A stretch of 14,289 bases of DNA from Pseudomonadota bacterium (GTDB lineage: Bacteria > Pseudomonadota > Gammaproteobacteria > Xanthomonadales > Xanthomonadaceae): the NCBI GenBank assembly GCA_019348095.1, contig JAHWKC010000022.1, positions 1 through 14,289 of the forward strand. The letters run 5' to 3'. Under the pieces are notes generated by a model that did not search any database, was not told the DNA's origin, and was given only the letters and a program-made list of their open reading frames with translations. Numbering within the stretch: position 1 is the first letter of the stretch; every line of letters begins with the position of its first letter. The position numbers and the translations under genes are program-made. This document shows, one piece after another, positions 22-14,289 of this stretch.

Positions 22-111
22 TCCGGCCACATGACCCGAGCGCATGACCCGGACCATCCGCATGGAGCACCGCACCGTGACCCACATCAAGCGCCCGCAA
101 GGAACACCGCC

Positions 112-1821
112 ATGAGCTGGTTCAACAATCTCAAGACCTGGGTCAAGCTGCTGCTCGGCTTCGGGCTCGTCGTGGCCTTGCTGGCGGTCGTGATCGCGAC
201 CGCGCAGCGCTCGCTGCGGATGCTCCAGGACGACTCCGCCGTCGCGTTCGCGGCGTATGGCCTGGAAAACAACCTCAACGAGGATCGTGCGGCGGTGCTG
301 ACGATGCTCAGCGCGACCGATGCGGCGACGCGCTCGGCACTGCTGCAGGAGGTTGCGGAGCATTCGCAGAACGGCGCCCAGTACATCCGGCAGATCCGCA
401 CACTGGCGCAGGGCGACCCGGTGCTGCTGGGCCTGCTGGATCAGTTCTCCGCGCCGTATCGGGAGTTCACCCAGTTCCGCGACACCCGGACCGTTCCGTT
501 GATCCTCAGGGGCGAGCTGGAGGCCGCGCGCGACAGCTCGCTGACGGGCCAGCATTCGCGCTATCTGGCGCTGCGCGATCTCAGCCGCGCCCTGGCCACC
601 GAGGCGCAGCAACAGGCCGATCGCCACGCCGCGCAGGCGCGCACGGTTTTTGCGCTGGTCGGCTTGCTGGCGCTGCTGGCGGCGGTACTCATCGGCTGGC
701 TGCTGACCCGCGCCATTGCGCGCCCGTTGCGCGAGCTGACCACCACCGCCGAGCGGATCGCGCTCGGTGAACTGCCGGCGGACGAGCAGGCGGTTGCCCG
801 CGACGACGAGGTCGGCTTGCTGCACCAGGCCTTCGCACGCATGACCCACAAGCTGCGCGACATGGCTGCGGTGGCTGCGAGCATCGCCGAGGGCGACCTG
901 CGCGTGGAGGTGCAACCGCAGTCCGAGCGCGACGTGCTGGGCCAGGCATTCGCCTCCATGGTGACCAACCTGCGCGGGCTCACCGGCGAGCTGCACGAGG
1001 GAATCAACGTGCTGAGCGCGTCGGCCAATCAGGTGTCCACGTCCACCAGCCAGTTCGCCGCCAGCGCCAGCGAGACCGCCGCGGCGGTCAGCGAGACCAC
1101 CACGACCGTCGAGGAGGTGCGCCAGACCGCGCAGGTGTCCAGCCAAAAAGCGCGGGTCGTGTCCGAATCGGCGCAGCGCGTGGCCTCGGTATCGGAAAAC
1201 GGGCGCAAGGCCACCGACGACACCACTGCCGGGATGAACCGCATCCAGCAGCAGATGGAATCGATCGCCGAGAGCATGATGCGGCTGAGCGAGCAGAGCC
1301 AGGCGGTGGGGCAGATCGTCGCGACTGTGGAGGACCTGGCCGGCCAGTCCAAGCTGCTGGCGGTCAATGCCTCGATCGAGGCGGCAAAGGCCGGTGAGCA
1401 TGGCAAGGGTTTCGCGGTTGTGGCACAGGAGGTCAAGAGCCTGGCCGAACAGTCGCGGCAGGCGACGGCGCAGGTGCGCAGCATCCTCAGCGATATCCAG
1501 CACGCCACCAGCGCGGCAGTGCTCGCCACCGAGCAGGGCAGCCACGCCGTGGAGGACGGTGTGCGCCAGTCAAGCCAGGCCGGCGAATCCATCCAGGCCC
1601 TGGCGGGCAGCATCAACGAGGCCGCCCAGGCCGCGGTGCAGATCGCCGCATCTAGCCAGCAGCAGCTGGTCGGCGTCGACCAGGTGGCCTCGGCGATGGA
1701 AAGCATCAAGCTGGCCAGCAGCCAGAACGTCGACAGCGCCAAGCAGCTGGAAAGCGCCGCGCACAGCATCAAGCTGCTGGGCGACAAGCTCAAGCAACTC
1801 GCCTCGGGCTACCGCCTGTAA
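112..1821 (+). CDS. Methyl-accepting chemotaxis protein (two TM segments, tandem HAMP, cytoplasmic signalling domain)
   Basis: This is an inner-membrane chemoreceptor that would control the CheA kinase encoded next. The start at 112 is chosen because AAGGA at 99-103 lies 8 nt upstream and the protein then opens with MSWFNNLKTWVKLLLGFG, typical of four-helix-bundle receptors; an in-frame ATG at 31 would add 27 hydrophilic residues and has no clear ribosome site. The product is 569 aa. TM1 is at about 9-30. A predicted helical periplasmic region follows, with TM2 at about 177-198 (FALVGLLALLAAVLIGWLL). A HAMP domain follows TM2, and a second HAMP-like unit (SIAEGDLRVEV) comes next. The signalling hairpin tip is SKLLAVNASIEAAKAGE from about residue 413, followed by GKGFAVVAQEVKSLAEQS. 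The C-terminus (ASGYRL) has no CheR-tethering pentapeptide. The ligand cannot be told. The domain call is secure; the sensory role is unknown. Confidence 0.96.
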   Translation: MSWFNNLKTWVKLLLGFGLVVALLAVVIATAQRSLRMLQDDSAVAFAAYGLENNLNEDRAAVLTMLSATDAATRSALLQEVAEHSQNGAQYIRQIRTLAQGDPVLLGLLDQFSAPYREFTQFRDTRTVPLILRGELEAARDSSLTGQHSRYLALRDLSRALATEAQQQADRHAAQARTVFALVGLLALLAAVLIGWLLTRAIARPLRELTTTAERIALGELPADEQAVARDDEVGLLHQAFARMTHKLRDMAAVAASIAEGDLRVEVQPQSERDVLGQAFASMVTNLRGLTGELHEGINVLSASANQVSTSTSQFAASASETAAAVSETTTTVEEVRQTAQVSSQKARVVSESAQRVASVSENGRKATDDTTAGMNRIQQQMESIAESMMRLSEQSQAVGQIVATVEDLAGQSKLLAVNASIEAAKAGEHGKGFAVVAQEVKSLAEQSRQATAQVRSILSDIQHATSAAVLATEQGSHAVEDGVRQSSQAGESIQALAGSINEAAQAAVQIAASSQQQLVGVDQVASAMESIKLASSQNVDSAKQLESAAHSIKLLGDKLKQLASGYRL

Positions 1822-1832
1822 GCGGCGGGGCG

Positions 1833-4214
1833 ATGAACAAGCGCGAGAGCGAGTTCCTGCAGCGGCTGAGGGCCACCTTTCTGGTGGAGGCGCGCGAGCA
1901 CCTGCAGGCGATCGCCTCGGGTCTGGTGGCGCTGGAGAAAGCCGGCTCGGTGAGCGAGCGCTCGCATCAGCTCGAAATCGTTTTCCGCCACACCCATAGC
2001 CTCAAGGGCGCCTCGCGCGCGGCCAACTTCCCGCGCATCGAGGCGGTCTGCCAGGGCATCGAGGAAGTATTCGCGCTGTGCAAGCGCCGCGGCCGGATCC
2101 TGACTGCGGCCGACTTCGACACGCTGCATCGGGCGTTCGACCTGGTGGGCGCCTACGTTGATGCCGGTGGCGTGGCGCCGGATGGCGCCTCGACCCAGGA
2201 AGCCTCGGATCTGGTCGGACAGCTGCAAGCAATGGCGTCCGGCGAGCACGCCGCCGAGCGCGAACCGGCGCCGCCCCCGGGGCTGGAGCCCTCCGCGTCG
2301 GCCGGCGAGCGCCGGAGCCTGCAGCAGGTCGGGCGGCAGCACCCGCCGGCCGGCGCGGCGCCCACCGAGCCGATCGCGCCGGCCGCGACTGCACCGGCCA
2401 CGATTCGTATCGCCGCCCCGCATCTGGACCGGGTGCTGCTGGCCGCCGAGGAGTTGCTGACGATCAAGCAGGGCAATGCCGAGCGCGCCGACGAACTGCG
2501 CCGGCTCGAGCGCGGCTTCGACGACTGGGGCAAGCAGTGGCTGGCCGCGCAGACGCCGCTGCGGCGGGTGCGCGCGCTCTCCACCCAGCTTCGGGCTGGC
2601 CCCGATCCGGCCAGCGCCGAGGCGCCGTACCGGGTGCTGGAATATGTCGACTGGACATTTGGCTACATCAAATCGCTGGAGGGCCGGCTGCGCGCCGTCG
2701 CCAAGTCGGCCGCCCGCGACGAGCACATCACCGGCAAGCAGATCGACGAGCTGCTGGACGAATCCAAGAACCTGCTGATGACACCGTTTGGCGCATTGAC
2801 CGAGCTCATGCCCAAGCTGGTGCGCGACCTCGCCCGCGACCAGGGGAAGCAGGTCGACCTGCAGCTCGGTGGCGCCGAGGTGCAGCTCGACAAGCGCATG
2901 CTTGAGCAGCTCAAGGACCCGCTGGTGCACCTGGTCCGCAACGCGATCGACCACGGCGTGGCGTCGCCCGCGCGGCGCAGCGCCGCTGGCCTGGCGGGCG
3001 CGGCGACGTTGCGCATCGAGGCGCGACTGGTGCACGGCAACAAGATCGAGATGGTCGTGGCCGACGACGGCGCCGGATTCGACCCCCAGCAGCTGCGCAA
3101 GGCCGCAGTCGATTGCGGCCTGATTGAGGAGGACGCCGCGCGCCAGCTCGACGACGGCCAGGCGGTCGAGCTGGCGTTCCGCTCGGACGTCTCCACCAGC
3201 CCGATCATCACCGAGATCTCCGGGCGCGGGCTGGGCCTGGCGATCGTGCGCGAGCGAGTCGAGAAGCTCGGTGGCCGCATCCAGGTGGAGAACCGCTTGC
3301 CACTCGGCGCGTGCTTCCGCATCACGCTGCCGCAGAGCCTGGCCACCTTCCGCGGCGTGTTCGTGCAGGCCGGCGGGCAGGTCTTCATCATTCCGACCAC
3401 CCATGTCGAGCGCGTCGCCCGGCTGCCGCGCACAGGGCTGAAGACCGTCAGCCGGCGCGAGACCCTGTCGATCGACGGCCAGGCGGTTGCGGTGGCCCAC
3501 CTGCACGACGTGCTGGAATTGCCGCCGCCGGCGACCGGCCCGACGTCCGGGTTCATCACCGTGGTGCTGGTCGGCGGCGGCCACGAGCGCCTTGCGCTGG
3601 CCGTAGATGAGGTGCTGCATGACGAAGAAGTGCTGGTCAAGCGGCTGCAACGGCCCCTGGTGCGGGTACGCAATATCGCCGGAGCGACCGTGCTGGCCTC
3701 GGGCAAGGTGCTGCCGATCCTCAACGTCGCCGACGTGCTGAAGTCGGCGCGCCACGCCGGCGACAGCCGCCAGGAAGCACCGGCCCCGTCGGGCGACGCC
3801 CGAACGCTGGCCCGCACCAGTGGCCGCAGGATCCTTCTGGCGGAAGACTCGATCACCTCGCGGCTGTTGCTCAAGGGCATCCTGGAGGGCGCCGGCTGCG
3901 AAGTGAAGACGGTGGGGGACGGCATCGAGGCCTTCACTGCGTTGCGCAGCGAGCCCTTCGACCTGCTGGTCTCCGACATCGAGATGCCGCGGCTGAACGG
4001 CTTCGACCTGACCGCGCGCATCCGCGCCGACCGCACGCTCGGGCAGCTGCCGGTGGTGCTGGTGACCGCGCTGGCGCGGCGCGAGGACCGCGAGCGCGGG
4101 ATCGATGTGGGCGCCAATGCCTACATCACCAAGGGCGGCTTCGACCAGCGCGACCTGCTCGCGGCGGTGGCGCGCCTGGTCGGCATCCGCGACCGGCAGG
4201 AGGAGCGCTCATGA
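1833..4214 (+). CDS. cheA: Hybrid chemotaxis histidine kinase CheA fused to a response-regulator receiver
   Basis: A cytoplasmic kinase that would autophosphorylate under receptor control and pass phosphate to receivers. It is 793 aa, starting 11 bp after the receptor stop. The N-terminal Hpt has phosphoacceptor H55 in HTHSLKG. An Ala/Pro-rich linker (about 130-190) follows, with no recognisable P2 CheY/CheB-docking domain. The central kinase core has N-box N370 in LVRNAIDHG, G1 box DDGAGFD and G2 box from G464 (GRGLGLAIV). A CheW-like domain (about 500-640) would couple it to the receptor. The C-terminal receiver (about 667-785) keeps acidic E671/D672, phosphoacceptor D715 (VSDIEMP) and K767, so it should be phosphorylatable. 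This Hpt-kinase-CheW-REC layout is that of FrzE-like alternative chemosensory kinases rather than flagellar CheA. The fused receiver may replace CheY or act as a phosphate sink. Its stop overlaps the cheB start. Confidence 0.96.
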   Translation: MNKRESEFLQRLRATFLVEAREHLQAIASGLVALEKAGSVSERSHQLEIVFRHTHSLKGASRAANFPRIEAVCQGIEEVFALCKRRGRILTAADFDTLHRAFDLVGAYVDAGGVAPDGASTQEASDLVGQLQAMASGEHAAEREPAPPPGLEPSASAGERRSLQQVGRQHPPAGAAPTEPIAPAATAPATIRIAAPHLDRVLLAAEELLTIKQGNAERADELRRLERGFDDWGKQWLAAQTPLRRVRALSTQLRAGPDPASAEAPYRVLEYVDWTFGYIKSLEGRLRAVAKSAARDEHITGKQIDELLDESKNLLMTPFGALTELMPKLVRDLARDQGKQVDLQLGGAEVQLDKRMLEQLKDPLVHLVRNAIDHGVASPARRSAAGLAGAATLRIEARLVHGNKIEMVVADDGAGFDPQQLRKAAVDCGLIEEDAARQLDDGQAVELAFRSDVSTSPIITEISGRGLGLAIVRERVEKLGGRIQVENRLPLGACFRITLPQSLATFRGVFVQAGGQVFIIPTTHVERVARLPRTGLKTVSRRETLSIDGQAVAVAHLHDVLELPPPATGPTSGFITVVLVGGGHERLALAVDEVLHDEEVLVKRLQRPLVRVRNIAGATVLASGKVLPILNVADVLKSARHAGDSRQEAPAPSGDARTLARTSGRRILLAEDSITSRLLLKGILEGAGCEVKTVGDGIEAFTALRSEPFDLLVSDIEMPRLNGFDLTARIRADRTLGQLPVVLVTALARREDRERGIDVGANAYITKGGFDQRDLLAAVARLVGIRDRQEERS

Positions 4215-5293
4215 GTGCAGCGCCGATCAACGTGCTAGTCGTCGACGATTCGCAGGTGATGCGCATGCTGCTGGTGCATCTTCTCGAGCAGGATCCGGCT
4301 GTCCGTGTAGCCGGCGCTGTCGATGGCGGCCCAGCCGCGCTGGCGTTCGTCGCAAACTGCTTGCCGGACGTGGTGTTGATGGATATCCACATGGACGGCA
4401 TGGACGGGTTCGAGGTCACGCGCCGGATCATGGAGGCCACCCCGGTGCCGATCGTGATGTGTTCGGCGGTCACCGATCCGCGCGCGGTCGCGACCGTGTT
4501 CCGGGCCTACGAGGCAGGCGCGGTCGCGGTGGCGGAGAAGCCGGTTGCCTACGACCACCCGGAATTCGCAAGGCTGTCGAGCGAGCTGCTGCAGACGGTC
4601 AAGCTGATGGCCGAGGTCAGGGTGGTGCGGCGCTGGCCGCGCCGGCCGGTGCCGGCCGCAAAGCCCCCGAAAACGCGCCCGCCGGGCAGGATCGAGGCGG
4701 TCGGCATCGGCGCGTCCACCGGCGGCCCGCCGGCGTTGCAGACGCTGCTGGGAGGGCTGCCGAAGGATTTCCCCGCGCCGCTGCTGGTAGTCCAGCACAT
4801 CAGCGCCGGCTTCTTGCCGGGGCTGGCGGAATGGCTGAGCCAGACCACCGCCCTGCAGGTGCAGATCGCCGCCCATGGGGTGGAGGCGCGACCGGGCCAC
4901 GTGTACCTCGCGCCGGACGATTTCCATCTTGCGATCGACGCGCAGGGGTGCCTGCGGCTCAGCCGCCACGCGGCCGAGAGCGGACTTCGCCCGGCAGTCG
5001 ACCACCTGTTCCGCTCGCTGGCCGAGCACTGCGGCGCCAGCGCCGTGGGCGTGCTGCTGACCGGCATGGGGCGGGACGGGGCGCTCGAGCTTCGGACCAT
5101 GCGCGAGCGTGGCGCGATCACCATTGCGCAGGACCACGCCACTTCAGTTGTCTACGGCATGCCCGGCGAAGCCGTCGCGCTGCAGGCCGCCAGCCAGGTC
5201 TTGCCGATCGAGCGGATCGCCGACGCGTTGTGCCGCATCGCCGCTGCAAGTAATCCAGTCAGTCAAGACCACTCACGCGAGGCCACGCCGTGA
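4211..5293 (+). CDS. cheB: Chemotaxis response regulator protein-glutamate methylesterase CheB
   Basis: CheB removes methyl groups from (or deamidates) receptor glutamates, resetting receptor sensitivity; phosphorylation by CheA activates it. The protein is 360 aa, close to the family norm. The N-terminal receiver has D12/D13, phosphoacceptor D58 (LMDIHMDGMDG) and K110. A basic, Pro-rich linker (about 138-160) joins it to the C-terminal esterase domain. The catalytic triad is complete: S169 in GASTGGP, H196 in VVQHIS and D289 in GMGRDGA. AGGAG at 4201-4205 precedes the ATG by 5 nt, and the gene overlaps cheA by ATGA, so the two are probably coupled in translation. CheB implies a partner methyltransferase CheR, not in this window and probably upstream. 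The receptor encoded at 112-1821 is the obvious substrate, but this is inferred from position. Confidence 0.98.
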   Translation: MSAAPINVLVVDDSQVMRMLLVHLLEQDPAVRVAGAVDGGPAALAFVANCLPDVVLMDIHMDGMDGFEVTRRIMEATPVPIVMCSAVTDPRAVATVFRAYEAGAVAVAEKPVAYDHPEFARLSSELLQTVKLMAEVRVVRRWPRRPVPAAKPPKTRPPGRIEAVGIGASTGGPPALQTLLGGLPKDFPAPLLVVQHISAGFLPGLAEWLSQTTALQVQIAAHGVEARPGHVYLAPDDFHLAIDAQGCLRLSRHAAESGLRPAVDHLFRSLAEHCGASAVGVLLTGMGRDGALELRTMRERGAITIAQDHATSVVYGMPGEAVALQAASQVLPIERIADALCRIAAASNPVSQDHSREATP

Positions 5294-8200
5294 CCGGGCA
5301 ACACAGTTTAGAGAGCAGCGGCGTCGAGATACTGATCGCTGAGGACAGCTCCACCCAGGCCATGAGCCTGCAGTACCTGCTGGAGCAGCAGGGCTACAGC
5401 GTGGTGGTCTGCGAGAACGGCCGCAAGGCGCTGGAAGCGGCAAAGCGGCGCAAGCCGACCCTGGTGATCAGCGACATCGTGATGCCCGAGCTCGACGGCT
5501 ACGGATTGTGCCGCGCGCTCAAGGCCGACTCGGACCTGGCCGAAGTGCCAGTGCTGCTGGTGACCACACTCAACGACCCGGAGGACGTGCTGCGAGGGCT
5601 GGACGCCGGCGCCGACAGTTTCATCCTGAAGCCCTACGACGATCCGTTCCTGCTTAACCGGGTGCGTTTCGTGCTGCTGCACCGGCAACTGCGCCGGACC
5701 GACCGCACCGACATGGGTGTGGAGATCAGCTTCAAGGGCCGCACCCACTTCATCACCTCCGACCGCCTGCAGATCCTCAACCTGCTGCTGTCGACCTACG
5801 AGGCGGCGATCCACCGCAACGAGGAGCTGCGCCGCTCCGAGGACGAACTGCGCCAGGCCAATGCCGCGCTCAGCAACGCCAACGCGCGGCTGGAGGAGCA
5901 GGTGGGCCAGCGCGAGCGGGCCGAGGAGCAGGTACGCCGCCTGTCCAGCGATCTGCTCAAGGCCAGCGAAGCACAATTGCAGCATAGCGAGCAGCGGTTC
6001 CGGCAGTTGCTCGACGTGGTGCCGGCGGCGATCTACGCCAGCGATGCCAATGGCCGGATCCTGGAATACAACCCGGCGGCCGTGGCGCTGTGGGGCCGTC
6101 ACCCGGAGCCAGGGGTCACTGGCGAGGCGTTCTACGAGGCCTGCCGTCTGCAGCGGCCCGACGGCGCGCCGCTGGAGGGGCTCGATGCGATGACGCTCAC
6201 GCTGGAAACCGGCGAGCCGGTCCGCAACGCCGAGCTTGCGCTGCGCCGGCCGGATGGCTCGCGGGTGGAAGTGCTGGTCAACACCGCATCGATCCGCGAC
6301 GCCGAGGGGCGCCCCGCCGGGTCGATCAACTGCCTGCTGGAGGTCACCGACCTGAGCCAGGCGCAGCGCCAGCTCTCGGCCGGCCGGCAGCTGGCGCAGG
6401 GCACGCTGGACGCGCTGTCGGCGCACATCTGCGTGCTCGACCAAACCGGCACCATCATTGCGGTCAACGAGGCCTGGCGCCGTTTCGGCCTGCACAACGG
6501 CGCCGCCGAGGCGGCGGTGGGCGAGGGCACGAACTATTTGGAAGTCTGCGCCCAGGTCCTGGGCTGCGAACGCGAGCAGGCCGAGCAGTTCGCGCAGGGC
6601 TTGCGCGAGTTCATGAACCAGCGCCGCGACGAGTTCCACATGGAGTACTCCTGCCATTCGCCGCAGGAGCAGCGCTGGTTCGTGGCCCGCGTCACGCGCT
6701 TTGCGATCGATCACACGGTGCGCTTTGTCATCGCGCACGAGAACATCACCGAGCGCAAGTTGGCAGAGGAGCAACTGAGGGAAAAGAACGGCCTGCTGAA
6801 AATGGCCGGCGACATGGCCCGGATCGGTGGCTGGGCGTACCGCCTGGAGGACCAGACGCTGATCTGGTCCGATGAGGTCGCCGCGATCCACGAGGTGCCA
6901 CCTGGAACGTCGCCGGACGTGGCGCAGGCAATTGAATTTTATGCCCCCGAGCACCGCGACCGGCTTGCCGCGAGGTTCAAGGCCTGTGTCGAACAGGGGG
7001 TGCCCTATGACGAGGAATCGGAAATCATCTCAGCCACCGGCCGGCGCATCTGGGTGCGCTCGATCGGGGTCGCGGTGACCAATGCCGAGGGCAATGTCGT
7101 GCGGGCGCAGGGCGCGTTCCAGGACATCTCCGCGCGCAAGCACGAGGAGGAGCGGGTCTCCCGTATCGCCGAGCGCCTCACCACCACGCTGGAGAGCATT
7201 ACCGACGCGTTCTACACCGTGGACCGCGAATGGCAGTTCACCTATGTCAACCGGGAGGCCGAGCGCATCATGCAACGCAGCCGCGAGCAGCTGCTGGGGC
7301 GCGGTATCTGGGAGGAGTTCCCGCAGGCGGTGGGCAGCGAGTTCGAGCGCCAGTACCGCGAGGCGGTGGAACAACACTGCGCGGTGCGGTTCGAGTCCTA
7401 CTACCCGGCGCTGGATCTGTGGGTAGAGGTGCAAGCCTATCCCTCCGACGAGGGGCTGGCGGTGTACTTCCGCGACGTCGGCAAACGCAAGAACGCCGAG
7501 CTGGCGTTGCGCCAGAGTGAGGAAAGCCTGCGCCTGGCCGTGACCGCCGGCGGACTCGGCACCTGGAACTGGAAGACCGCGGGCAATCACCTGCAGTGGT
7601 CCGACGCATCCCGGCACATGTTGGGCCTGGAGGCAGATGCCACGCCGGCTTACGAGGACTTCCTAGCAGCGATCCACCCGCAGGACCGCGAGCACGTCAC
7701 GAACGCATTGCAGCAGGCGGTGCAGGACAAGGCCGACTTTCGCGCCGACTTCCGGGTGGTCTGGCCCGATGGCTCGATCCGCTGGATCGCGGGCATGGGG
7801 CGGGCCTATACGGAATGCGGCGAGGACGAGCTGCGGATGGAGGGCGTCATCCTCGACATCACCGAGCGCAAGCGCAGCGAGCACGACCTGCTGGAGCTCA
7901 ACGAGCAACTGGAACAGCGCGTGGAGCAGCGCACCCGCGAGCTGGTCGCCGCGACCCAGCAGGCCGAGGCGGCCAACGCGGCGAAGTCCTCGTTCCTTGC
8001 CACGATGAGTCACGAGATCCGCACGCCGATGAACGGCATCGTCGGCATGGTCGACGTGATCGCGCACAGCCCGTTGTCGGAACACCAGGGCGATGCGGTG
8101 CGCACGATCCGCGAGTCGGCCTTCACCCTGCTGCACCTGATCGACGACGTGCTGGACTTCTCCAAGATCGAGGCCGGCAAGCTGGAGCTGGAGCGCACGC

Positions 8201-9927
8201 CTGTGTCGCTGGCCGACCTGGCCGAAGGCGTGTGCGACACACTGACCTCCGTTGCGGACACCAAGGGTGTGGACCTGTTCCTGTTCGTGTCACCGGAGGG
8301 CCCGGCACAGGTACGCGGCGATGCTGTCCGTCTGCGGCAGATCCTCTACAACCTGGTCGGCAACGCAATCAAGTTCAGTGGCGGGCGCGCCGACAAGCGC
8401 GGCCGGGTCGACCTGCGCATCGAAGTGGCGCGCGAGGCGCCACTGATGGTGCGCTTCGAGGTTTCCGACAACGGTGTAGGAATCCCGCAGGCGGCCCGTG
8501 CGCACCTGTTCCAGTCGTTCCAGCAGGCCGAGGTCTCCACTACGCGGCGCTACGGCGGCACCGGTCTAGGCCTGGCGATCTGCAAGCGGCTGGTCGAGCT
8601 CATGGGCGGCGAGATCGCAGTGGACAGCACGCCGGGCGTGGAGACCACCTTCACCGTGAACCTGCCGTTCGAGGCCGCGCCGGGTCGCCGCGCCGGTGGT
8701 CCGCGGCCCGACCTGACCGGGGTGAATTACGTCCTGGTATCGGGCGCGAACATCCGTGCCGAGGACCTGCGTGTCTACCTGGAGTGTGCCGGTGCCAGCA
8801 CGCGCGTGGTCGGCAGCGGCGTGGAGGCGGTCAAAGCCTGCGCCGAGCTGTCCGCGCCGATCGTGGTGCACGGTGGCATCGACGAGGACTCGCGCGACGC
8901 ATGGCTGTCGCTGTTCTTCAATGCCCCGGACGTGCGTCACCTGCTGATATCGCGCGGCCGCCGCCGCGTCGCCCGCCTCGCCGGGCCGAAGATCGTCACC
9001 ATCGACGGCAACTCGATGCGCCGGCGCTCGCTGCTGTACGCCGCCGCGGTGGCCGCCGGACGCGCCTCGCCGGCCAGCGGCGACTGCCGCACGCCCGGTG
9101 ACATCCCGCAACTGCAAGTGATCGCGCCGACCGTGGCGGAGGCTCGTGCGCGCGGCCAGTTGATACTGGTTGCCGAGGACGACACCACCAACCAGAAGGT
9201 GCTGTTGCGCCAACTCGAACTGCTCGGCTACGCCGCCGAGGTGGCCGGCGACGGCGTGGAGGCGCTGCGGCTGTGGCGCGGCGGCAGCTACGCGTTGCTG
9301 CTGACCGACCTGCACATGCCGCGGCTGGACGGCTACGGGCTGACCAGCTCGATCCGCCGCGAGGAAGCCGGCGGCCGGCGCATGCCGATCCTGGCGCTGA
9401 CCGCCAACGCGCTGCGCGGGGAGGCCAGCCGCGCGCTCGCCGCCGGCCTGGACGAATACCTGACCAAGCCGATGCAGCTTCCGGTGCTGCGTGAGGTGCT
9501 GAACAAGTGGCTGCCGCTGGACGTCGGCACGGGGCGATCGGCCGACGCCGACCCACTGCCGGAACCAGACGCGCAGGCGGCCCGGCGCGTGCTGGACGTT
9601 TCGATGCTGCGCGGCGTGGTGGGCGATGCGCCGGAGACCCTGCGCGAGCTGCTGGCCGACTACCAGCAAGCGGCCAGCCAGGCAGTCGCCAACCTGCACG
9701 CGGCGCTGGAGGCCGACGACATCAAGGAGATCGGGGTGATCACCCACCGGCTCAAATCGTCATCCAGGACCGTGGGGGCGCTGCCGATGGGCGATCTGTG
9801 CGCCGAGCTGGAGAACGCCTCCCGAGTTGCCGATAAGGCAGGAGTGAAGCGCGCGATGGGGCAGCTTGCACCGGCGCTGGCGGAGCTGCAGGCCAGCATC
9901 GAGCAGGCCCTGGAGGAGGACCTGTGA
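5290..9927 (+). CDS. Hybrid sensor histidine kinase: REC, five PAS-like regions, HisKA, HATPase, degenerate REC, REC, Hpt
   Basis: A 1545-aa soluble phosphorelay kinase with no TM segment seen. It starts at GTG, overlapping the cheB stop by 4 bp (GTGA), with GCGAGG at 5277-5282 as a possible ribosome site. The N-terminal receiver has D62 and K114, so another kinase (perhaps CheA) may feed it. A coiled-coil linker (about 150-230) leads to PAS-like regions at about 234-353, 367-491, 502-617, 631-737 and 741-864; several end in ITERK-type joints. HisKA carries H908 in [11 protein letters not shown]. The ATPase has N1025 (VGNAIKF), DNGVGI at 1060 and GGTGLGLAI at 1089. A receiver-sized segment at about 1146-1257 lacks the phosphoacceptor Asp. 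The next receiver is complete (AEDD, D1340 in LTDLHMP, K1393). The terminal Hpt has H1486 in THRLKSSS. The predicted relay is H908 to D1340 to H1486, then to an external receiver. The PAS ligands are unknown. The likely targets are the two downstream receiver proteins. Confidence 0.95.
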
Positions 9928-10018
9928 GACACATGATTGACTGCATCAATACCGGATCGGCATGTCGGCACGGCACGCAACGCTACGACACACACGTTAC
10001 AAACCGGCGGAGAGCTGC

Positions 10019-11230
10019 GTGAAAATACTGATCCTCGATGACGACCCGTTCGTGCTCAAGCTGCTTTCGATCCAGCTCAGGTCGCTGGGCCTTCGACGCC
10101 GCGGCTTTTTCGAACTGGTCCCCTGCGAGCGCGGCCACTTGGCCGTGGCGCTGCTCGAGGCGGGGCACGAGGATGTCGGCATGATCCTGTGCGACCTACA
10201 GATGCCCGAGATGGACGGGGTCGAGTTCGTCCGTCACCTGGTGCGGGTGGGTTACCAGGGCGGGGTGGTGCTGGTCAGCGGCGAGGACGAGCGCGTGCTG
10301 ATGAGCGCCCAGCGCGTGGCCAAGGCGCACGGGCTGAAAGTGCTCGGCGCACTGCAGAAGCCGGTGACGCCGGAGCACCTCAGGCAGGTACTCGACGAAG
10401 CACTGCTTGACAACCCGGCGGTGGCCTCTCGCCCCGATCAGACGGCCTACGAGCCGGACGAGCTGCGCCGCGCGATCGACGGCGGCGAGCTGGTCAACTA
10501 CTACCAGCCCAAGGTCGAGCTGGCCTCCGGTGAGGTCTGCGGCATGGAGGCGCTGGTCAGGTGGCGCCATCCGGTGGACGGGCTGGTCATGCCGGACCGG
10601 TTCATCGGGCTGGCCGAGGAATGCGGCCTCATCGAGGGCATCGCCCGGGTGGTGCTGCCCGCGGCGCTACGGCAGGGTCGGCAATGGCACGATGCCGGGC
10701 ACATGGTCGATGTGGCGGTCAACGTCTCGATGGGGACGCTGTGCTCGCTGGATTTCCCCGACTTCGTTGCCGAGCAGGCGCAACAGGTCGGCTTCCCGCT
10801 GGCCCAGCTGATGCTGGAGATCACCGAAAGCCAGCTGATGACCGATCCGCGGTCGCAGCTGGACATCCTGACCCGCCTGCGGCTGAAGCAGGTGCGCCTG
10901 TCGGTGGATGACTTCGGTACCGGCTACTCGTGCATGGCGCAACTGCGCGACCTGCCGTTCGACGAACTCAAGGTCGACCGGGGCTTCGTGCACCGCGCAG
11001 CGATCGATCCGTCGCTGCGCGCGATCCTGGAGGCCAGTCTCGGGCTGGCGCGGCAACTGGGCCTGAAGACCGTGGCCGAGGGCGTGGAGGACCAGGAGGA
11101 CTGGGACCTGTTGCGCACCACCGGTTGCGACCTGGCGCAGGGGTATCTGGTGTCCCGGCCGATGCCGGGCGCGGACGTCGCGGTGTGGATCAAGCGCTGG
11201 GAATCGCGCCGGGTCGAGCTCGTTACCTGA
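10019..11230 (+). CDS. REC-EAL response regulator, predicted c-di-GMP phosphodiesterase (RocR-like)
   Basis: This protein should hydrolyse c-di-GMP to pGpG when its receiver is activated. The GTG at 10019 is chosen because GGAG at 10009-10012 sits 6 nt upstream and the receiver begins at once (KILILDDD); an ATG at 9962 would add 19 residues with no good ribosome site. The product is 403 aa. The receiver (about 1-125) has D59 (CDLQMPEMDG) and K114. The EAL domain (about 147-400) keeps E177 (EAL), N235 (NVS), E267 (EITES), D297/D298 (DDFGTGYS), K318 and D320 (ELKVD), E354 (EGVE) and Q374 (QGY), so activity is expected. From memory, these residues are all spaced as in P. aeruginosa RocR, shifted by two. 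There is no DNA-binding domain, unlike VieA. It lies 91 bp after the hybrid kinase, its likely phosphodonor. Confidence 0.95.
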   Translation: MKILILDDDPFVLKLLSIQLRSLGLRRRGFFELVPCERGHLAVALLEAGHEDVGMILCDLQMPEMDGVEFVRHLVRVGYQGGVVLVSGEDERVLMSAQRVAKAHGLKVLGALQKPVTPEHLRQVLDEALLDNPAVASRPDQTAYEPDELRRAIDGGELVNYYQPKVELASGEVCGMEALVRWRHPVDGLVMPDRFIGLAEECGLIEGIARVVLPAALRQGRQWHDAGHMVDVAVNVSMGTLCSLDFPDFVAEQAQQVGFPLAQLMLEITESQLMTDPRSQLDILTRLRLKQVRLSVDDFGTGYSCMAQLRDLPFDELKVDRGFVHRAAIDPSLRAILEASLGLARQLGLKTVAEGVEDQEDWDLLRTTGCDLAQGYLVSRPMPGADVAVWIKRWESRRVELVT

Positions 11231-11306
11231 TTTCATCGACCGCGTCCGGTCCGCTTGCGCACCGGCGCGGTGCATCCAACGCTGCAGCATCCATCGAGCG
11301 CGACGC

Positions 11307-12473
11307 ATGAATGTCACTACCGCCTTTGACACCAGGATCCTGGTGGCGGCCACCAACGTCGAGGACGCCAAGATGGTGGCCGAGCTGCTGCGCGAGGATT
11401 TCGAGCAGGTCGGCACCGCCACCGACCCGGACCACGCGGTGCGCGACTTCGAGCGTTTCCGGCCGCAGGTGCTGGTGCTGGCGTTCAAGACGCTGGAGGA
11501 ATCGGAGCGGTTCTATCTCGGGCTGTACCGCCTGAGTGGACAGGTGCATGCCATTCCACACCGGACCCTGGTGCTGTGCCAACGCACCGATGCGTACCGC
11601 GCGTACGAGCTGTGCCGCAAGCAGCACTTCGATGACTACGTGGTGTTCTGGCCGGTCAATTATGACCCGCAGCGGGTCCGCATGGCCGCGCTGCTGGCGG
11701 CGCGCGCCGGCACCGTGGTCGGTAGCGACGGCCCCAGCCCGGTCGAATTTGCCGCGCAGGCGCGGCGCATCGCCGAGCTGGAAGTGCTGCTGCAGCGCAG
11801 CCTTGCGCGCGGCGACGAGCAGATCGCGCACTTCAGCGATTCGCTGCGGCAGGTCGAGAGCGACGTCGGCCAGGCGCTGGAGGGCTTCTCGTGCAAGGTG
11901 CTGGACGGCCGCCACGACGACCTGCTCGAGATCAAGAACCGCGAGGGCTTCCAGCGCGAGCTCACGCGGCTGCAGGAAGACGAGATGCGCGGCCCGTTCG
12001 CGACCGTGGATGCACTGCTGGAACCGGTGCGGCAATGGGTCGAGAGCTTCCGCCAGGAGCTCGCGCCGCAGCTGGACTCGGTGCGCGCACTGGCCGAACT
12101 TGCGGTCAGGGTCCGGCCGGTGGTGCTGATGGTCGATGACGACGAGTTCCAGCAGCGCCTGGTGCAGAGTCTGCTGGCCGAAGTCGCGGTGGACCTGGTG
12201 TTCGCCGACAGCGGCACCCAGGCAATGGCGCAACTGCGGACCCACCGCCCCGACCTGATCCTGATGGACTTCCAGTTGCCCGACATCAGCGGGGTCGAAG
12301 TCATGCGTCGGCTGAAGCTCGCCTCCGGCACCGCCGGCATCCCGGTGATCCTGATCACCGGCACCAGCACCCGGGAAGTCCTGCTGCAGAGCCACAAGGC
12401 CGGCGCGGTCGACTTCATGGTCAAGCCGTTTGACCGGAACCGGCTGATCGCCAGCATCAACAAGCACCTGTAG
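11307..12473 (+). CDS. Response regulator with N-terminal pseudo-receiver and C-terminal receiver
   Basis: A 388-aa cytoplasmic protein without an enzymatic or DNA-binding output domain. Residues about 8-132 look like a receiver fold (TRILVAATNVEDAKMVAELL) but the phosphoacceptor position holds A59 (VLVLAFKT), and the usual KP motif is replaced by WPVNYD at 115-120, so it should not be phosphorylated. The middle (about 150-262) is helical, Glu/Gln/Arg-rich and probably coiled. The C-terminal receiver (about 271-388) is intact: DDD at 277-279, D321 (ILMDFQLPDISG), T351 and K373 (MVKPF). The ribosome site before the ATG is weak. It begins 76 bp after the REC-EAL gene and is probably co-transcribed. 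It may compete for phosphate or bind the kinase, as VieB does in the VieSAB system; this parallel is from context, not homology. The stop codon lies inside a REP-like unit. Confidence 0.92.
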   Translation: MNVTTAFDTRILVAATNVEDAKMVAELLREDFEQVGTATDPDHAVRDFERFRPQVLVLAFKTLEESERFYLGLYRLSGQVHAIPHRTLVLCQRTDAYRAYELCRKQHFDDYVVFWPVNYDPQRVRMAALLAARAGTVVGSDGPSPVEFAAQARRIAELEVLLQRSLARGDEQIAHFSDSLRQVESDVGQALEGFSCKVLDGRHDDLLEIKNREGFQRELTRLQEDEMRGPFATVDALLEPVRQWVESFRQELAPQLDSVRALAELAVRVRPVVLMVDDDEFQQRLVQSLLAEVAVDLVFADSGTQAMAQLRTHRPDLILMDFQLPDISGVEVMRRLKLASGTAGIPVILITGTSTREVLLQSHKAGAVDFMVKPFDRNRLIASINKHL

Positions 12474-12624
12474 GAGCCGCATCAGCCGCGCACGCCGCCC
12501 TTGTAGGAGCGCCTTCAGCCGCGAGCTCATCGATGCGGCCTGCAAAATTCCGCGGTTGCAGGAGCGCACGAGTCGCGACGACGCGCCTGCGATGCGCAGC
12601 TTCGCGGCTGAAGCCGCTCCTACA
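12469..12624. repeat. Cluster of four REP-like palindromic units (BIME-like)
   Basis: Unit 1 (12469-12490) begins TGTAGGAGCCGCATCAGCCG. Unit 2 (12502-12524) begins TGTAGGAGCGCCTTCAGCCG. Unit 3 (about 12556-12579) is a diverged relative, TTGCAGGAGCGCACGAGTCG. Unit 4 (12602-12624) is inverted, and its reverse complement begins TGTAGGAGCGGCTTCAGCCG. Units 2 and 4 differ at one base in 23; unit 1 differs from unit 4 at three. Each unit can fold on GCGGCT/AGCCGC, and units 2 and 4 can pair with each other into a long hairpin. Such REP sequences are mobilised by RAYT transposases and are common in Xanthomonadaceae and Pseudomonas. No transposase gene is in the window. Their place right after the regulator operon suggests mRNA 3'-end protection or weak termination; there is no T-run. 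Confidence 0.85.
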
Positions 12625-12686
12625 AAGAGCGCTGAGCCGCCTTGAACCGGCCGATTGCATCTGGCCGACGACCAGATAACGAAAAC

Positions 12687-12716
12687 TTGACATTCGACAC
12701 AGTACCGGCCGTCGAA
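12687..12716 (+). promoter_or_regulatory. Candidate promoter for the riboswitch-DUF4402 transcript
   Basis: A perfect -35 match TTGACA lies at 12687-12692 in a locally AT-richer stretch. The -10 is poor: GTCGAA at 12711-12716 after an 18-bp spacer is the best I can place. Transcription from it would begin about 10 nt before the riboswitch aptamer, a sensible position, but the weak -10 keeps this tentative. Confidence 0.3.
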
Positions 12717-12734
12717 CACGTCGATGATGCGCCT

Positions 12735-12825
12735 GCACGATAAACGGCATACCGGTTTGAAAGAACGGGACGCAAAGCCACCGGCCTACAGGCGATTCGC
12801 CCATGGCAGCGGGGCTACCGAATGC
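12735..12825 (+). ncRNA. Cyclic di-GMP-I riboswitch (GEMM-I) aptamer
   Basis: The region carries the conserved GEMM-I blocks in order. There is a 5' strand CACGATAAACGGCATACC (12736-12753). A hairpin follows with a GAAA tetraloop at 12759-12762, flanked by CCG and CGG. Next come the hallmark GGGACGCAAAGCC (12767-12779), then ACCGGCCTAC as the likely tetraloop-receptor strand, a GGCG-ATT-CGCC tip at 12791-12801, and GGCAGCGGGGCTACCG (12805-12820). GGC at 12746-12748 can pair with GCC at 12777-12779, as in the Vibrio Vc2 aptamer. These blocks match the family closely and occur in the correct order and spacing. The aptamer lies about 108 nt upstream of the DUF4402 start at 12933, on the same strand. 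It should sense c-di-GMP and control that gene; ON or OFF sense cannot be read directly. Confidence 0.94.
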
Positions 12826-12932
12826 AACTCAGCGATTCCTCGACAGGCCGCACCGGCCTGCACCGATGAGCCCAGGTTGCCGTGCCTCGCTACGACGCGA
12901 GTACCACTTCGCAATTAACAGGGGCTATTCCC
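12826..12932 (+). promoter_or_regulatory. Riboswitch expression platform / 5' leader of the DUF4402 gene
   Basis: This leader links the aptamer to the coding start. It has a perfect 7-bp hairpin CAGGCCG-CAC-CGGCCTG at 12844-12860 and a 5-bp hairpin CTCGC-TACGAC-GCGAG at 12886-12901. Neither is followed by a T-run, so no intrinsic terminator is seen, which favours control of translation or Rho-dependent control. The ribosome site AGGGGC is at 12920-12925, 7 nt before the ATG. The string GGGGCTA at this site (12921-12927) also occurs in the aptamer (12811-12817), so aptamer strands could in principle pair with either. Confidence 0.5.
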
Positions 12933-13460
12933 ATGAGCATGAAAACCATTGTTGTCAGCGCGATCGCGCTGAGTGCTGCCGCGTTCGCCTCCACCAGCGT
13001 CGCGGCCGAGGCCACCGCCAGTGCCGGCGGTACCGTCATCAAGCCGATCGCCATCGCCAAGGCGGCCGACCTCGCTTTTGGTAAGTTCGCGCCGGGCGCC
13101 GGCGGCAGCGTGACGGTCAGCACCAGCGGTGCGCGCACCGCGACCGGCGTCATCCTCTCGACCGTCGGCAGCTCGCCTACCGCAGCCAAGTTCGACGTCA
13201 CCGGCGAGGCCGATGCCACCTACAGCATCGCGATCGCCCCGTCCGCCAACCTGGCGGATACCGCCACCACGCCGAACACGATGGCGCTGGCGACCTTCAG
13301 CGACCTGACCGCTGGCAACGCGGTCACCGGCAACGTCACCAGCGGCACCCTGACTGCCGGTGCGCAGTCGGTCTACGTCGGCGGCAAGCTGACCGTCGGT
13401 GCCACCCAGGCCGCCGGCACCTACAGCGGCAACGTCAAGGTCACCGTCGAGTACAACTGA
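12933..13460 (+). CDS. Secreted DUF4402 domain protein (putative major fimbria-like subunit)
   Basis: A 175-aa exported protein. The start at 12933 is chosen because AGGGGC at 12920-12925 is well spaced and the signal peptide follows at once; an ATG at 12882 would add 17 residues before it. Signal peptide about 1-25 (SMKTIVVSAIALSAAAFAS), likely cut after VAA. The mature part is rich in Ala, Gly, Thr, Ser and Val and has no Cys. It shows the DUF4402 pattern: an early LAFGKFAPGAGGSVTVS, a middle AKFDVTGEADATYSIAI, and a terminal GTYSGNVKVTVEYN beta-strand ending at the C-terminus. DUF4402 proteins are predicted beta-sandwich surface proteins, often beside chaperone or usher genes. The riboswitch leader and the strong terminator just after it fit a highly expressed, c-di-GMP-controlled structural subunit. 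That role is inferred. Confidence 0.88.
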   Translation: MSMKTIVVSAIALSAAAFASTSVAAEATASAGGTVIKPIAIAKAADLAFGKFAPGAGGSVTVSTSGARTATGVILSTVGSSPTAAKFDVTGEADATYSIAIAPSANLADTATTPNTMALATFSDLTAGNAVTGNVTSGTLTAGAQSVYVGGKLTVGATQAAGTYSGNVKVTVEYN

Positions 13461-13484
13461 GCGTTCCGCACGACAGCGAAAATG

Positions 13485-13504
13485 GCGCGGCATTGATGCC
13501 GCGC
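13485..13504 (+). other. Stem-loop downstream of the first DUF4402 gene
   Basis: GCGCGGCA and TGCCGCGC flank a TTGA loop, giving a perfect 8-bp stem 24 bases after the stop codon. No T-run follows. It probably protects the 3' end of the mRNA or works with the terminator hairpin just downstream. Confidence 0.6.
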
Positions 13505-13517
13505 GATCTGGCGGAGC

Positions 13518-13547
13518 AAGGCGGGCATGTCCCGCCTTGTTTCTTTA
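13518..13547 (+). terminator. Rho-independent terminator after the first DUF4402 gene
   Basis: AAGGCGGG (13518-13525) and CCCGCCTT (13531-13538) form an 8-bp GC-rich stem around a CATGT loop, followed by GTTTCTTT. This is a textbook intrinsic terminator. It would isolate the first DUF4402 transcript, or let only partial read-through reach the second DUF4402 gene and the chaperone-like gene. Confidence 0.88.
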
Positions 13548-13590
13548 GACTGGCGAGCAGTGAATCCCGGTTGCTGACGAGGTCGGTGTG

Positions 13591-14055
13591 ATGCATTCCG
13601 CGAATCCGCATCGTCTCCTGTTCGCACTGGCATGTGCTGCGGCTCTCGGGCCTGCGGCCGCCGCCGAGGTGGCCATCAGCAACGTCCAGCCATTGGCCTT
13701 CGGCAGCTTCACCGCCGGCCCCGGTTCTGTCACCGTGGGTGCCGATGGTGCCCGCGCAGCATCGGGCAACGTGGTCCTGCTCGGCACCGATCCAGGCCAG
13801 GCGGCGCAGTTCGTCGTCACCGGCGATGCCAACGCCAGCTTCGCCGTGACGCTGCCCGCAGACGGCTTGGTGACGCTCGGCAACGGCAGCCTGAACATGC
13901 CGGTGAATGCTTTTACCAGCAGCCCCGCTTCCACCGGTGTGTTGTCCGGTGGTGGCAGCCTGACCTTGAACGTAGGCGCCACGCTGGAAGTCGCCGCCGG
14001 TCAGTCCACTGGCGGCTACTCCGGCAGCTTCACGGTGGTCGTCAACTACAACTGA
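13591..14055 (+). CDS. Second secreted DUF4402 domain protein (putative minor subunit)
   Basis: A 154-aa exported paralogue of the protein encoded at 12933-13460. The ATG at 13591 is preferred because GAGG at 13579-13582 lies 8 nt upstream; the GTG just before it would add one residue. Signal peptide about 1-25, likely cut after AAA before EVAIS. Cys15 sits in ALAC, which is a poor lipobox, so a lipoprotein is unlikely. Matching stations with the paralogue are PLAFGSFTAGPGSVTV, AQFVVTGDANASFAVTL and the terminal GGYSGSFTVVVNYN. Sequence between these stations has diverged, so the copy is old. It lies behind the intrinsic terminator with no clear promoter in the 44-base gap, which suggests lower expression by read-through, as for minor pilins. 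The riboswitch may therefore reach it indirectly. Confidence 0.85.
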   Translation: MHSANPHRLLFALACAAALGPAAAAEVAISNVQPLAFGSFTAGPGSVTVGADGARAASGNVVLLGTDPGQAAQFVVTGDANASFAVTLPADGLVTLGNGSLNMPVNAFTSSPASTGVLSGGGSLTLNVGATLEVAAGQSTGGYSGSFTVVVNYN

Positions 14056-14123: not shown

Positions 14124-14289
14124 ATGCCGTCCCCGATGGACTACGAAACCACGACCGCAGCCAACGTTCAGGGCGCGGCCCTCATGACCCGCATCCGGCG
14201 GCGCTGGCCGGCGCTGGCGGTAGTGCTCGCGCTGCTGTCGCTGTTCGCCGTACCGGTATCAGCGCAATTGATGGTGCATCCGACCCGCA
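14124..14289 (+). CDS. 5' end of a secreted protein, probably a PapD-like periplasmic pilus chaperone (partial)
   Basis: The frame is open to the window end. ATG at 14124 has AGGGAG at 14112-14117, 6 nt upstream. ATG at 14184 is the alternative and starts directly at the signal peptide, but has a poorer ribosome site. From 14184 the protein has three Arg residues, a hydrophobic core (ALAVVLALLSLFAVPV) and an SAQ cleavage site, so it is exported. The mature part begins LMVHPTR, matching the first beta-strand of periplasmic fimbrial chaperones, where a PTR motif is common. Two DUF4402 genes just upstream support this, since such clusters usually continue with chaperone and usher genes. Only about ten mature residues are visible, so the family call rests mostly on this motif and the context. 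Confidence 0.6.
   Translation, partial: MPSPMDYETTTAANVQGAALMTRIRRRWPALAVVLALLSLFAVPVSAQLMVHPTR

Follow-up and report, generated by a model that had tools for sequence, protein, structure and literature searches.

What does a cyclic di-GMP (c-di-GMP) riboswitch control when it stands in front of a gene for a DUF4402 protein, a member of an uncharacterised family? The question is raised by a contig of 14,289 nucleotides (nt) from a Pseudomonadota bacterium of the Xanthomonadaceae (GenBank assembly GCA_019348095.1, contig JAHWKC010000022.1), analysed here at its full length and called the window, near the end of which a riboswitch of the c-di-GMP-I (GEMM-I) class had been predicted from the letters alone. 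Our analysis indicates that this riboswitch would be the 5' leader of a chaperone-usher pilus operon with DUF4402 subunits. We put the probability that a c-di-GMP-selective aptamer, its control of the DUF4402 operon in cis and a pilus as the product all hold together at roughly 0.8.

The aptamer and its class

When the whole window was compared with 4,227 Rfam families (cmscan), RF01051 alone exceeded its gathering threshold, with one match.

12736..12822, + strand: c-di-GMP-I (GEMM-I) riboswitch aptamer, helices P2 and P3 (RF01051, 72 bits)

The original prediction had named a scan with this covariance model as the check on its riboswitch claim, a score under threshold counting against it; at 72 bits against a gathering threshold of 35 (E 8.1e-13), the match scores twice the threshold. 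It covers the model at full length (positions 1-87 of 87), with no pair marked as non-standard. All three GEMM-I signatures that had been quoted are found, in the order given, and only the coordinates need correction, 12735-12825 lying 1-3 nt away from the ends of the match. In the core, 34 of 36 strongly conserved positions (upper case in the consensus) are kept, with mismatches at 12750 and 12789; the GAAA tetraloop of P2 is present, and the hairpin that it caps carries one extra G relative to the Rfam model.

The ligand contacts G20, A47 and C92 of the Vibrio cholerae aptamer Vc2 were taken from PMC4744006 (this and the other papers are cited from excerpts) and mapped by us onto the Rfam columns. 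The specificity position, equivalent to G20, is G12747; the intercalating A, equivalent to A47, is A12775; and the position of C92 is represented by a C at both 12818 and 12819. GGCA is kept in all 12 aptamers compared. Riboswitches of the cyclic GMP-AMP (cGAMP) class, GEMM-Ib, typically have A at the G20 position; with G12747, the window lacks the non-G that marks this type. From its sequence the aptamer is thus almost certainly genuine and of the c-di-GMP-selective type. Its own assembly (2.7 Mb, 72% complete), of which the window is one whole contig (C144), holds no other RF01051 match.

Genes behind the aptamer

Three reading frames follow on the same strand.

12933..13460, + strand: DUF4402 protein 1, 175 amino acids, signal peptide (by eye), probable chaperone-usher pilin (PF14352, 96 bits; cut-off 25.2)
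13588..14055, + strand: DUF4402 protein 2, 155 amino acids, probable second pilin (PF14352, 103.7 bits)
14124..14289, + strand: start of a chaperone-like gene, 55 codons to the contig end, resembling the start of a Halomonas chaperone

As had been claimed, a DUF4402 gene lies directly downstream of the riboswitch, its ATG (12933) being 110 nt from the aptamer end. DUF4402 protein 1 is 93% identical to a protein of Lysobacter sp. D1-1-M9, which makes a host akin to Lysobacter likely, and 68% identical to the first DUF4402 protein of the related locus L031; DUF4402 protein 2 shares 49% identity with the second one of L031, and the tandem pair is retained in relatives. The fragment of the third gene yielded no informative Pfam match and no tblastn match at 1e-3. 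Aligned directly with the Halomonas chaperone start, 11 of 19 positions are identical (E 6e-4 for the pair), and the fragment ends in AQLMVHPTR, like the beginning of the Halomonas chaperone-like gene. No usher gene lies within the window.

Recurrence of the pairing

DUF4402 was detected in 2 of the 395 genomes searched in the window's family and in 13 of 369 in its class. It is present in 7 of 250 genomes from the family to which Halomonas lysinitropha belongs, in 13 of 283 from the corresponding order and in 2 of 290 from the order of Massilia agrisoli. Including 8 further loci, these come to 40 different genomes with DUF4402 (counted by handle, at E <=0.001, a few lying under the curated cut-off), and at least one locus of each was scanned with Rfam, some with short upstream sequence (273 nt for L038). 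The further DUF4402 loci L076-L078, L121-L128 and L131 and two matches without a locus were left outside the scan.

A c-di-GMP-I or c-di-GMP-I-GGC riboswitch precedes the first DUF4402 gene in 8 of these 40 genomes (the window's, G760, G761, G827, G932, G933, G939 and G1020), and the pairing is present in 6 of the 7 DUF4402-bearing genomes of the H. lysinitropha family. Where the best DUF4402 match reaches 90 bits, the riboswitch is found in 8 of 11 genomes, the three without it at the scanned loci being G048, G403 and G763; among the others, with weaker or unscored DUF4402, it is found in 0 of 29. The aptamer-to-ATG distance is 129-140 nt in the seven relatives compared with 110 nt in the window. 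In G760 and G761, the sole genome-wide match to RF03167 sits at the DUF4402 operon (150 first-look candidates scored in each); for comparison, 37 of the 395 genomes in the window's family have an RF01051 match at any position. Plasmid records contributed one weak relative. Chance juxtaposition of aptamer and DUF4402 is very unlikely, and was rejected, because the pairing recurs in 7 other genomes; counting on the other side, the scanned loci of 32 of the 40 genomes yielded no riboswitch. Position and recurrence together make it highly probable that the riboswitch is part of the DUF4402 operon and regulates it in cis.

A predicted pilus operon

The AlphaFold model of DUF4402 protein 1 (predicted local distance difference test score, pLDDT, 87.5) has the immunoglobulin-like fold expected of a pilin. 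Its nearest folds in the PDB by Foldseek are Csu, Caf1, Pap and Fim pilin subunits, with modest scores, and Csu and Caf1 pilins rank in the top ten places. The gene order in relatives, traced by tblastn with four Halomonas proteins, points in the same direction: two DUF4402 genes are followed by a chaperone-like and an usher-like gene in all seven riboswitch-bearing relatives, and likewise in three Massilia loci, in Lacisediminimonas, in G048 and in both Geobacteraceae loci (one of them truncated within the usher), while the G403 locus has a single DUF4402 gene ahead of the chaperone-like and usher-like genes. The chaperones of the relatives have about 290 amino acids and the usher-like proteins 866-1008. 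PapD_N matches 5 of 5 chaperone relatives at E <=0.01 (best 5e-6), but the proteins of L031 and L136 score 21.6 and 20.5 bits, under the cut-off of 23. For the usher-like protein, hhalign pointed to an usher with E 7.6e-5 and a probability of 62%, and the top 17 Foldseek matches of its model are all FimD or PapC ushers.

Several results pull the other way. Only one pilin match of the DUF4402 model reaches a Foldseek E <=0.001, with TM-scores of 0.40/0.50, and none of 10 usher-like relatives matches Pfam Usher (PF00577). With a pLDDT of 49 the usher-like model is of low quality, and its TM-scores to ushers are 0.12-0.27; its Foldseek matches therefore count as support only. PDB sequence searches with DUF4402, usher and chaperone gave nothing useful (best chaperone match FimC, E 0.054); in NCBIfam, five of six proteins had no match and the sixth matched a DamX model, far under the cut-off, through a SPOR domain. 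On balance, the DUF4402 proteins are most likely chaperone-usher pilins, as the earlier wording "DUF4402 fimbriae" had it, and predicted folds and relatives make it quite probable that the operon makes a pilus from two pilins, a PapD-like chaperone and a diverged usher.

A candidate expression platform

The leader between aptamer and ATG holds elements from which a switch could be built.

12802..12816, + strand: 3' arm of P3, able to pair alternatively with the anti-Shine-Dalgarno segment (duplex energies)
12868..12884, + strand: proposed switch (anti-Shine-Dalgarno) segment, pairing with the P3 3' arm or the Shine-Dalgarno sequence
12886..12901, + strand: hairpin between the anti-Shine-Dalgarno segment and the Shine-Dalgarno sequence, CTCGC-loop-GCGAG, present in three window folds
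12919..12932, + strand: Shine-Dalgarno region, AGGGG 8 nt before the ATG (read from the sequence)

Pairing of 12868-12884 with 12802-12816 is worth -23.6 kcal/mol, the lower P3 helix -13.6 kcal/mol and pairing of the same segment with the Shine-Dalgarno sequence -12.2 kcal/mol. In the minimum-energy fold of a window transcript ending before the Shine-Dalgarno sequence, P3 is invaded by 12868-12884. Without ligand, the segment would invade P3 and the ribosome site would stay open; binding of c-di-GMP would lock P3 and free the segment to cover the Shine-Dalgarno sequence, so that translation goes down (OFF). Both the anti-Shine-Dalgarno segment and the 12886-12901 hairpin are conserved in the leader of G199, which has an 11-pair Shine-Dalgarno helix (p 0.003, the floor of 300 shuffles). 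Of the six Halomonas-type leaders, five have AGGGGA as their Shine-Dalgarno sequence and one has CGGGGA, with comparable spacing. Equilibrium folding was run for 8 of 11 leaders, and in three of the eight, formation of the aptamer lowers the accessibility of the Shine-Dalgarno sequence by 0.09-0.18, which is the OFF direction. A scan of the + strand from 12400 to 13650, not covering Rho sites, found no intrinsic terminator, and control by one was rejected; a sigma-70 promoter scan of 12400-13650 likewise found none. These predictions make control of translation, through pairing of 12868-12884 with either the P3 3' arm or the Shine-Dalgarno sequence, somewhat more likely than not.

Against the OFF mechanism stand the remaining folding results and a general expectation. 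In the other five of the eight leaders, including the window's (0.34 versus 0.29), equilibrium accessibility of the Shine-Dalgarno sequence is near-equal with the aptamer formed or not, so that the switch would need kinetic control. The nascent window fold reaches -62.4 kcal/mol compared with -58.4 kcal/mol when the aptamer is forced; since a forced fold never scores better, all that the gap of 4 kcal/mol proves is the existence of a competitor. Tested leader by leader, the dual-pairing segment never reaches significance (p 0.056-0.81 over 11 leaders; 0.11 for the window against shuffles); for six lineages together the combined p is 0.034, and it becomes 0.014-0.072 if a different Halomonas leader is taken as representative. 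A first accessibility test against dinucleotide shuffles reached 0.05 in 3 of 11 leaders (G760, G1020 and G127); it misplaced the Shine-Dalgarno sequence of at least the window and G939 and is superseded by the segment and folding tests. Moreover, c-di-GMP as a rule favours adhesion, and an OFF switch for an adhesive pilus would go against this. We lean only slightly towards OFF because of the near-equal equilibrium accessibility, the non-significant single leaders and the weak combined p.

Alternative readings

The strongest competitor keeps the riboswitch and the operon and reverses the sign, c-di-GMP raising pilin translation, for example if P1 and the stretch directly behind the aptamer rearranged in a way that would lie outside the reach of the nearest-neighbour model. 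An ON switch would suit the general tendency of c-di-GMP to favour adhesion, and it has precedents in Vc1 of V. cholerae, reported as ON before gbpA, the gene of a secreted colonisation factor (PMC4744006), and in the class II switch of C. difficile pilA1, also ON (PMC6366702); equilibrium folding leaves the sign for the window undecided. The anti-Shine-Dalgarno segment, however, competes directly with P3, a layout that gives OFF under co-transcriptional folding, and we place ON a little short of even odds.

Action of the leader on transcription, through Rho-dependent termination, or on RNA stability, rather than on translation initiation, is unlikely. It draws on the fact that the translational platform is a candidate and not proved, but the interval scanned has no intrinsic terminator, and the window and G199 have in common a pairing near the Shine-Dalgarno sequence that amounts to the 11-pair helix in G199.

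That the DUF4402 family consists of secreted proteins other than pilins, with neighbours that form no pilus system, is improbable in view of the pilins in the first ten Foldseek places, the chaperone-like and usher-like genes that follow in the seven riboswitch-bearing relatives and in four Massilia and Lacisediminimonas loci, and the agreement of Foldseek and hhalign on ushers. Finally, 3',3'-cGAMP as the ligand is highly improbable, given that the selectivity position G12747 is as in c-di-GMP sensors and that GGCA is invariant among the aptamers compared, even though cGAMP riboswitches were first annotated within the same class (PMC9262584), a G20A construct binds cGAMP (PMC6274999) and the G20-type position is described as a selectivity factor rather than a hard filter (PMC9262584).

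Origin of the leaders

The leaders of the DUF4402 operons fall into three types, between which similarity is detectable in the aptamer alone. Six Halomonas-type leaders are mutually alike (z 13-28), whereas the window leader compared with them outside the aptamer gives z -0.1 to 1.9, and compared with that of G1020 z ~0. It does resemble the leader of G199, from another genus of its own family (z 8-9), and more weakly that of G127 (z 3.6-4.9). The operon behind the G199 leader is SCPU-chaperone-usher-SCPU, and in G013 a c-di-GMP-I leader likewise precedes an SCPU gene. This pattern suggests exchange of leaders between pilus operons, or repeated pairing; a single riboswitch gain followed by divergence of the leaders is an origin that the data still allow. 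A tree built from 14 proteins, each the first DUF4402 protein of its locus, leaves 9 of its 11 inner branches unresolved, and the riboswitch label requires 2 changes on it, a number as low in 5 of 500 shuffles; in the alignment behind the tree, the G933 row starts one codon late and the L036 row is over-long at its start. A broader proposal, which we hold tentatively and think somewhat doubtful, is that the c-di-GMP-I leader is an exchangeable control cassette for chaperone-usher pili that was paired at least three times with DUF4402 operons (in the window's Lysobacter-like lineage, in Halomonas and kin, and in the G1020 lineage), the window leader having been swapped in from an SCPU operon, and one segment choosing between the P3 arm and a Shine-Dalgarno sequence that mimics it.

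Surrounding genes and other c-di-GMP-I loci

Just upstream of the leader, a chemosensory-type cluster ends in genes for a REC-EAL and a REC protein (9962-12473).

9962..11230, + strand: REC-EAL protein, probable c-di-GMP phosphodiesterase, second gene upstream (PF00072, PF00563)

The whole cluster (31-12473) encodes a methyl-accepting chemotaxis protein, a CheA-like hybrid, CheB, a PAS hybrid kinase of 1545 amino acids, the REC-EAL protein and the lone REC protein; we take it to resemble a Wsp-type system in which EAL replaces the GGDEF output. The window's own genome has 22 GGDEF matches. In G1020 (locus L137), the gene immediately upstream of the riboswitch-DUF4402 operon, in the same orientation, encodes Hpt, two REC stretches and GGDEF; its product is a probable diguanylate cyclase. 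The usher-like protein of that operon has a C-terminal SPOR domain.

The gap before the riboswitch contains inverted repeats, GTAGGAGC...GCTCCTAC, at 12470-12625 (24 nt, 96% complementary). They resemble the REP/GTAG palindromes known from Stenotrophomonas and its relatives. A strong hairpin (GCGCGGCATTGATGCCGCGC) at 13485-13504 separates the two DUF4402 genes; it is terminator-like on the minus strand only and may determine how much of the first pilin is made relative to the second.

Other c-di-GMP-I aptamers of the window's family (L008-L030) precede large secreted-looking proteins. By eye, an N-terminus like ...PTTYPGNFTSCDDLPGV... recurs in 12 of 29 other c-di-GMP-I loci of this family, and at least three of them show a GDSL-type start (FFGDSLTDSG); the proteins at these loci form a further group of riboswitch targets. 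The family also has c-di-GMP-I aptamers in tandem, in runs of two or three (G026:C5:42791-43111, G034:C1:1646871-1647077 and G007:C14:83370-83577). In Massilia agrisoli (G763, L083), a c-di-GMP-I aptamer (69.4 bits) stands before a secreted-looking protein of 466 amino acids and not at the DUF4402 operon.

Comparison with known systems

Regulation of chaperone-usher pili is usually described in terms of DNA switches and protein regulators. The terms riboswitch and c-di-GMP do not occur in the one review of the subject that was searched for them (PMC9820224). The name DUF4402 is absent from the open-licence papers searched, and in open-licence PMC papers no description of a riboswitch paired with a DUF4402 pilus was found among the matches listed, in two cases the best 15 of 237 and the best 15 of 32 (including PMC6637768 and PMC11218506, as excerpts), in agreement with the earlier statement that no case for DUF4402 fimbriae had been described. 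The aptamer class is already known, and c-di-GMP riboswitches have been described in front of the gene for a type IV pilin (PMC6366702) and of that for a secreted attachment factor (PMC4744006); the kind of target is new. If the proposal is true, pilus synthesis would be set by c-di-GMP directly in the mRNA, with no protein receptor. The recurrence of the pairing in other bacteria suggests that this signal directly decides whether the fibres are made. DUF4402 gains a probable role as a pilin, and testable leaders in environmental bacteria are on offer.

Among characterised switches, Vc2 shares the aptamer class and is described as switching translation OFF, probably under kinetic control (PMC9262584); for the window as well, a translational, kinetically controlled OFF switch is the simplest reading. 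Vc2 switches through P1 (PMC9262584), whereas the competitor proposed here is the P3 3' arm, and the target here would be a pilus operon. Vc1 belongs to the same class and likewise precedes the gene of a secreted attachment protein (PMC4744006); unlike the OFF switch favoured here, it is ON, its authors report in the excerpt that they saw no anti-Shine-Dalgarno sequence (PMC4744006), and GbpA is not a pilin. Cdi-2-4, a class II switch before pilA1, and the Geobacter pilM switch resemble the window in placing a cyclic-dinucleotide riboswitch on a pilus-related gene (PMC6366702, PMC9262584), but pilA1 encodes a type IV pilin and is controlled at transcription by another aptamer class (PMC6366702), and the pilM switch senses cGAMP and controls transcription (PMC9262584). 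Archaic chaperone-usher pili (Csu-type, SCPU) differ in that DUF4402 and SCPU are separate Pfam families and that the usher-like partner of DUF4402 is unmatched by Pfam Usher, yet their subunits are among the closest solved folds to DUF4402, and the SCPU genes of G199 and G013 have a c-di-GMP-I leader of their own, that of G199 resembling the window's.
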